Assembly (NCBI GenBank): GCA_021324075.1
Contig: JAJPJW010000060.1
Location: 1 to 40,323, forward strand
Direction: 5' to 3'
DNA: 40,323 nt
DNA from: Pseudomonadota bacterium
Lineage (GTDB): Bacteria; Oederibacteriota; Muellerivitia; Muellerivitales; Muellerivitaceae
Position 1 is the first letter of the stretch. The number at the start of each line of letters is the position of its first letter. Positions 10,681 through 10,979 of the stretch are shown here, piece after piece. The translations under genes were made by a program, and so were the position numbers. The notes beneath the pieces were generated by a model, which was given only the letters and a program-made list of their open reading frames with translations, was not told the DNA's origin and searched no databases.

Positions 10681-10979
10681 TGGTGGGGCATCCTGGATTC
10701 GAACCAGGGACCAAGGCATTCAGGTTGGTGCCGCTTACGCGGGCTCCCCGGACTATCTCTTCACCCAAATTTCAGGGTGTGGGACGCTTAAACGCGGTGA
10801 TTAAGGGGTCTATACCCCTCCGCTAGTCTCTGCACCTTCCCCCGGTGTACCGGGGGCTTGGCTCAGGATTGCCCGTCACCGGGTTTCCCTGAATTCATCC
10901 CATTTCATTCCCTGGCTTTCACCAGGGATGCACAGCTTCCGCTATGAGTGCCCTGCTCTAACCGCTGAGCTAATGCCCC
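10681..10979 (-). tRNA. tRNA with CAU anticodon (probably Ile2, elongator Met not excluded; not initiator), interrupted by an intron; exons 10944-10979 and 10681-10720, encoded CCA
   Basis: Exons join to GGGGCATTAGCTCAGCGGTTAGAGCAGGGCACTCAT|AATGCCTTGGTCCCTGGTTCGAATCCAGGATGCCCCACCA: 7-bp acceptor, GCTC/GAGC D stem, GGGCA/TGCCT anticodon stem, CCTGG/CCAGG T stem. Confidence 0.95.
10721..10943 (-). ncRNA. Group I self-splicing intron (223 nt) in tRNA(CAU), inserted between positions 36 and 37
   Basis: P1 CAU^AGC-GGAA-GCUGUG with U.G at the 5' splice site; P2 CCCUGG/CCAGGG; P3 UGGGAUG/CGUCCCA; P4 CAGG/CCUG; P5 CCCG-GUGA-CGGG; Q AAUCCUGAGCC; R CAGAGACUAG and S AGAUAGUCC (P7 GACUA/UAGUC); P8 CACCC/GGGUG; P9 CCGC-GUAA-GCGG; terminal omega-G. 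Confidence 0.93.

Follow-up and report, generated by a model that had tools for sequence, protein, structure and literature searches.

A group I intron between U36 and A37 of a tRNA-Ile2(CAU) gene in the candidate phylum FCPU426

The split tRNA gene and the fold of its intron

The window analysed here, a stretch of 40,323 nucleotides taken whole from a draft genome (98% complete, 228 contigs), carries on its reverse strand a tRNA(CAU) gene interrupted in the anticodon loop by a group I intron. The neighbourhood is that of an ordinary chromosome, with genes for an HTH/DUF433 protein on one side and an aminotransferase on the other, and with DUF4403, rpoD, dnaG and a MutS2-like gene beyond them on the same strand; no promoter-like site was recognised upstream of the split gene. 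ARAGORN run with its intron option placed the insertion point between U36 and A37 ('cat, intron 223' at 36/37), and the joined exons formed a complete cloverleaf labelled tRNA(CAU). A preliminary description of this DNA had given the same coordinates, the same 223-nt insert after U36 and the same cloverleaf, all of them correctly. The parts of the gene are as follows.

10979-10681, reverse strand: split tRNA-Ile2(CAU) gene (ARAGORN with the intron option).
10979-10944, reverse strand: 5' exon, 36 nt, tRNA nucleotides 1-36, the last base being anticodon U36 (ARAGORN with introns; equal to the uninterrupted genes of relatives G005 and G007).
10943-10721, reverse strand: group I intron, 223 nt, without a homing-endonuclease ORF (RF00028, 68.3 bits; ARAGORN; intronless relatives).
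10720-10681, reverse strand: 3' exon, 40 nt, tRNA nucleotides 37-73 plus an encoded CCA (ARAGORN with introns; intronless relatives).

The splice boundary is ambiguous by one base, as the intron and the 3' exon both begin with A, an ambiguity settled by the group I rules of a U.G pair at the 5' site and a terminal G. The Rfam model RF00028 (Intron_gpI), which the preliminary description had put forward as the check on its reading, matched the intron with 68.3 bits against a gathering score of 50 bits (E 2e-15 in the window). At genome scale this was the sole such match in the 3.57 Mb draft genome (E 4.2e-17), well outside chance expectation. The sequence contains the features that define membership of the group, namely the U.G pair at the 5' splice site in P1 and the terminal G, both conserved across the relatives compared, together with a P3-P8 core with its P7 pseudoknot and R/S elements. 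P1 (CAUAGC-GGAA-GCUGUG, with the U.G) and the R/S elements CAGAGACUAG and AGAUAGUCC read exactly as first quoted. Default ARAGORN found zero tRNAs in the whole window and a plain RF00005 search did not detect the split gene, whereas intron-aware ARAGORN did; the preliminary description had remarked that automated annotation often misses such split tRNAs. With a default tRNA caller, the genome would seemingly be without any AUA-reading tRNA.

The helices were assigned as listed here, P3 to P6a from the alignment of six FCPU426 introns.

10946-10931, reverse strand: P1, exon CAU plus AGC with GCUGUG, GGAA loop and U36.G wobble (U.G in 6/6 FCPU426 introns; distal pairs covary).
10928-10909, reverse strand: P2, GAAA loop (7/8 pairs change on both sides).
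10902-10897 with 10785-10780, reverse strand: P3, enclosing P4, P5, P6 and P6a.
10892-10887 with 10868-10863, reverse strand: P4.
10883-10880 with 10875-10872, reverse strand: P5.
10862-10860 with 10836-10834, reverse strand: P6.
10856-10850 with 10845-10839, reverse strand: P6a.
10828-10824 with 10755-10751, reverse strand: P7, the guanosine-binding helix, GACUA with UAGUC (invariant in 6/6 FCPU426 introns).
10823-10794, reverse strand: P7.1/P7.2 insertion, 30 nt, GCGG/CCGC and AGGGGU/ACCCCU with bulge UAAUCA (two P7.1 pairs compensatory within FCPU426).
10779-10762, reverse strand: P8, CACCC-UGAAAUUU-GGGUG (sequence and alignment).
10742-10731, reverse strand: P9, GNRA (GUAA) loop (4/4 pairs change on both sides).
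10721, reverse strand: terminal guanosine, omega-G (sequence; invariant in relatives).

Across the six FCPU426 introns, 96.3% of the 383 pair cells held standard pairs and 23 of the 64 pairs of P1-P9 changed on both sides. None of 500 shuffles scored as high on either measure, and pairing fell to 34-47% in slid-partner controls. P3, P4, P6 and P7 varied hardly at all, which fits their place in the catalytic core. The P7.1/P7.2 insertion follows the 5' strand of P7 and precedes the 3' strand of P3, GCGG/CCGC enclosing AGGGGU/ACCCCU. The P1-P9 helices previously drawn by eye are backed by the covariation; this insertion had been missed.

Comparison with known introns

Cyanobacterial tRNA-Leu(UAA) and tRNA-fMet and Agrobacterium tRNA-Arg(CCU) contain established group I introns which, like the present one, interrupt a bacterial anticodon loop, but in other tRNAs. 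Group I introns of bacterial tRNAs are well documented (PMC3984707, PMC4033280), and Acidovorax and Burkholderia have group I introns in tRNA-Ile2 at the very site of the window intron, reported with no structure given (PMC8450103). Introns of tRNA-Ile2 are already known, then, from Azoarcus, Acidovorax and Burkholderia, and what is new here is the host phylum, FCPU426: our search of the open-access literature turned up neither tRNA introns in FCPU426 nor a P7.1 in tRNA-Ile2 introns. Bacterial tRNA introns are also less sparse than the preliminary description implied, since a single-pattern database scan returned at least 119 DNA stretches with such Ile2 introns, mostly from Betaproteobacteria among the matches listed.

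Two cases of Ile2 introns deserve mention on their own account. Polynucleobacter sp. MWH-HuK1 has four 3' halves of Ile2 introns in one 2.15-Mb contig (L072, L096, L116, L118), which suggests that intron-bearing tRNA copies have multiplied or become fragmented. In a Bacteroidales MAG from horse faeces (L123), a single stretch of 8 kb contains two tRNA-Ile2 genes with introns, and one of the two introns, of 702 nt, encodes an HNH_3 protein.

The intron of the Azoarcus sp. BH72 pre-tRNA-Ile(CAU), of subgroup IC3, is like the window intron in host tRNA, in insertion after U36, in the CAU/GUG P1 with its U.G, in being a small ribozyme without an ORF and in its GNRA-capped P2 and P9, and the window intron is 70-74% identical to the two introns of the Azoarcus type with which it was compared. 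These likenesses could suggest an IC3 intron acquired from Betaproteobacteria, an origin that we consider unlikely in view of the fold and of the tree. P7.1/P7.2 is absent from the Azoarcus-type Betaproteobacterial Ile2 introns, whereas the window intron has a 30-nt covarying insertion there. The Azoarcus type also has an 11-nt-type receptor in P8, in contrast to the P8 described here; this CCUAAG...UAUGG receptor for L2 is a feature of the Azoarcus intron and not of all IC3 introns, and it or its like is seen in many Betaproteobacterial type A introns. In a tree built without the P7.1 region, the type A introns took their own side (95/91) and the FCPU426 introns grouped together (71/92), the latter clustering in two of three tree builds. 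The likeness to Azoarcus drawn at the outset thus held for host gene, site and splice-site pairing, but not for the fold.

A P7.1/P7.2 unit, mostly of 30 nt and with an AUAA-like bulge, is shared by one Bacteroidales intron and a second class of Ile2 introns in Burkholderiales. The Burkholderiales members (e.g. L051, L069, L147) share with the window intron the host gene, the site and a 29-30-nt module, but they are longer (249-281 nt) and belong to another host phylum; overall identity to the two compared was 70-77%. By sequence, the core and a P7.1/P7.2-UAAU module of similar length also occur in the crAss-like phage cr128_1 and in psbA intron 2 of Synechococcus phage S-CBWM1, which differ in their host genes, in the presence of endonuclease genes nearby and in a more distant sequence. 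With the window intron as query, plasmids gave no match and phages only partial matches, which argues against a recent phage donor. The T4 td and nrdB introns gave no Rfam match above gathering and no R/S pair in a motif search. The cr128_1 intron itself (L199, 1430-1645) has a P7.1/P7.2 nearly the same as that of the window, is separated by about 1 kb from tRNA-Arg genes of the phage and abuts an annotated endonuclease gene. Host tRNA and insertion site are common to the window and Azoarcus introns, the IC3 architecture is not, and in its fold, matched with the general Rfam group I model, the window intron looks more like the P7.1/P7.2-bearing, IA-like introns. At least two architectures are represented among tRNA-Ile2 introns, and the one that has been well studied is that of Azoarcus.

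Group I introns were also detected in FCPU426 within the anticodon of tRNA-Asn (GU|U), in G022, G014 and G043 (L032, L035 and L033, respectively), with a P1 of GGCUGU/GCAGCC. No uninterrupted tRNA-Asn copy was found in these three genomes; a congener, G025, has an uninterrupted tRNA-Asn equal to the exact joined sequence (L198). No published case of a group I intron in a bacterial tRNA-Asn came up in the open-access literature. The G043 intron is 521 nt long and contains a 108-aa HNH-like ORF (L033, 1668-1994, reverse strand), with two CxxC pairs towards its 5' end and a Pfam HNH score below the cut-off, a candidate homing endonuclease.

Intronless relatives and the identity of the host tRNA

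Relatives of the same family provide a natural control. In G005, G006 and G007 the Ile2 gene is uninterrupted and there are zero group I matches, while G001, G003 and G004, as well as G008 from a second family of the order, carry the intron and lack an uninterrupted gene. The uninterrupted tRNAs of G005 and G007 equal the predicted spliced product in 76/76 positions, and that of G006 in 72/76, its four differences lying in the T-stem with pairing kept. These orthologues define where the intron begins and ends without recourse to a fold and, alongside the covariance-model score and the covariation, they back the original reading of a CAU tRNA whose anticodon loop is interrupted by a group I intron. 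The Ile2 gene lies downstream of rpoD and on its strand in 8/8 genomes (the three intronless ones and G000, G001, G003, G004 and G008), 35 bases away at the nearest and about 10 kb at the farthest. Every genome of the order carries one of the two forms and not both, apart from G002 (84% complete), which has neither. From sequence and position, the intron-plus and intron-minus genes appear to be alleles at a single locus. G003, with the intron, and G007, without it, are placed in one genus, and gain or loss has therefore been exact within a genus.

The preliminary description had left the host tRNA as Ile2 or Met, an alternative that resolves to Ile2. The spliced tRNA is identical to E. coli tRNA-Ile2 in 62/76 positions (82%) and to E. 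coli elongator tRNA-Met in 54/76, and it shares the segment CUUGGUC with E. coli Ile2. The count of other CAU tRNAs that had been proposed gave two genes and no second Ile2: the initiator fMet of the same genome (L025, with 95% identity to the E. coli initiator) and L007, which is equally close to E. coli Ile2 and Met (52/76 each) and is presumed to be the elongator tRNA-Met through elimination only. That the roles are reversed, the split gene being elongator Met and L007 being Ile2, would agree with the position of L007 about 80 bases upstream of tilS (C95: 38362-38435 and 38516-39100) and with the ARAGORN label, which is Met for every CAU, but this is very improbable given the identities above and the published introns at the same site in other bacteria, which lie in Ile2 (PMC8450103). 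The comparisons thus support a host tRNA-Ile2 distinct from fMet and Met.

No UAU anticodon or further CAU was present among the 42 other called tRNAs, and a pattern search found no uninterrupted Ile2 copy in the same draft genome; tilS is present (E 6e-53), and AUA is used, though rarely, accounting for 10 of the 180 isoleucine codons counted in seven genes of the window. Because this is the sole Ile2 gene found, with no Ile(UAU), with tilS present and with AUA in use, AUA decoding probably depends on splicing of the intron, and splicing is probably essential to the cell. tRNA-Ile(GAU) and tRNA-Ala(UGC) are likewise missing from the draft assembly, so that a second Ile2 gene could be unassembled. 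It could then be imagined that the intron has decayed, that a second Ile2 or Ile(UAU) tRNA, missing from the assembly, reads AUA and that the split gene is a remnant; in G012, a relative within FCPU426, an uninterrupted Ile2 does accompany a diverged intron-bearing Ile2 on a separate contig (L040, L163), either as a second copy or through a binning error. We regard such decay as highly unlikely. The exons are intact and identical to the uninterrupted sister genes, every core helix is intact in the window and kept by compensatory change, and the uninterrupted copy is absent from all five intron-bearing genomes of the order.

Evolution and proposed role of the intron

When the phage introns were added to the tree, the deep branches were weakly separated and an AU test of a single P7.1 clade gave p 0.25. 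Azoarcus-type and P7.1-type Ile2 introns may accordingly represent either one or two insertions at the U36/A37 site. We tentatively speculate, as a possibility on the less likely side, that two unlike group I ribozymes, one of the Azoarcus type and one phage-like with P7.1/P7.2, settled independently at the same tRNA-Ile2 bond, and that in FCPU426 the P7.1-bearing one has been inherited and repeatedly and precisely lost or gained while serving as the sole route to AUA decoding. The clean intron-plus and intron-minus orthologues in one family, and even in one genus, offer material for a study of such gain and loss.

As to the locus itself, we are highly confident, from the sequence evidence assembled here, that it is a chromosomal tRNA-Ile2(CAU) gene with a small group I ribozyme between U36 and A37, and the intron almost certainly splices itself. 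The chemistry of guanosine-initiated group I splicing is established (reviewed in PMC3984707). In the precursor, the CAU of the 5' exon would pair with the intron guide in P1, where U36.G marks the splice site. A free guanosine occupying P7 would attack after U36; in a second step the 3'-OH of U36 would attack on the far side of the terminal G223, which would ligate U36 to A37 and set the intron free. Before splicing, CAU would be locked in P1 and decoding blocked. TilS presumably acts on the spliced loop only, which would place splicing before modification, and once the exons are joined it could convert C34 to lysidine and allow the reading of AUA. In a candidate phylum, FCPU426, for which we found no earlier tRNA-intron report, a decoding step thus appears to depend on a ribozyme.
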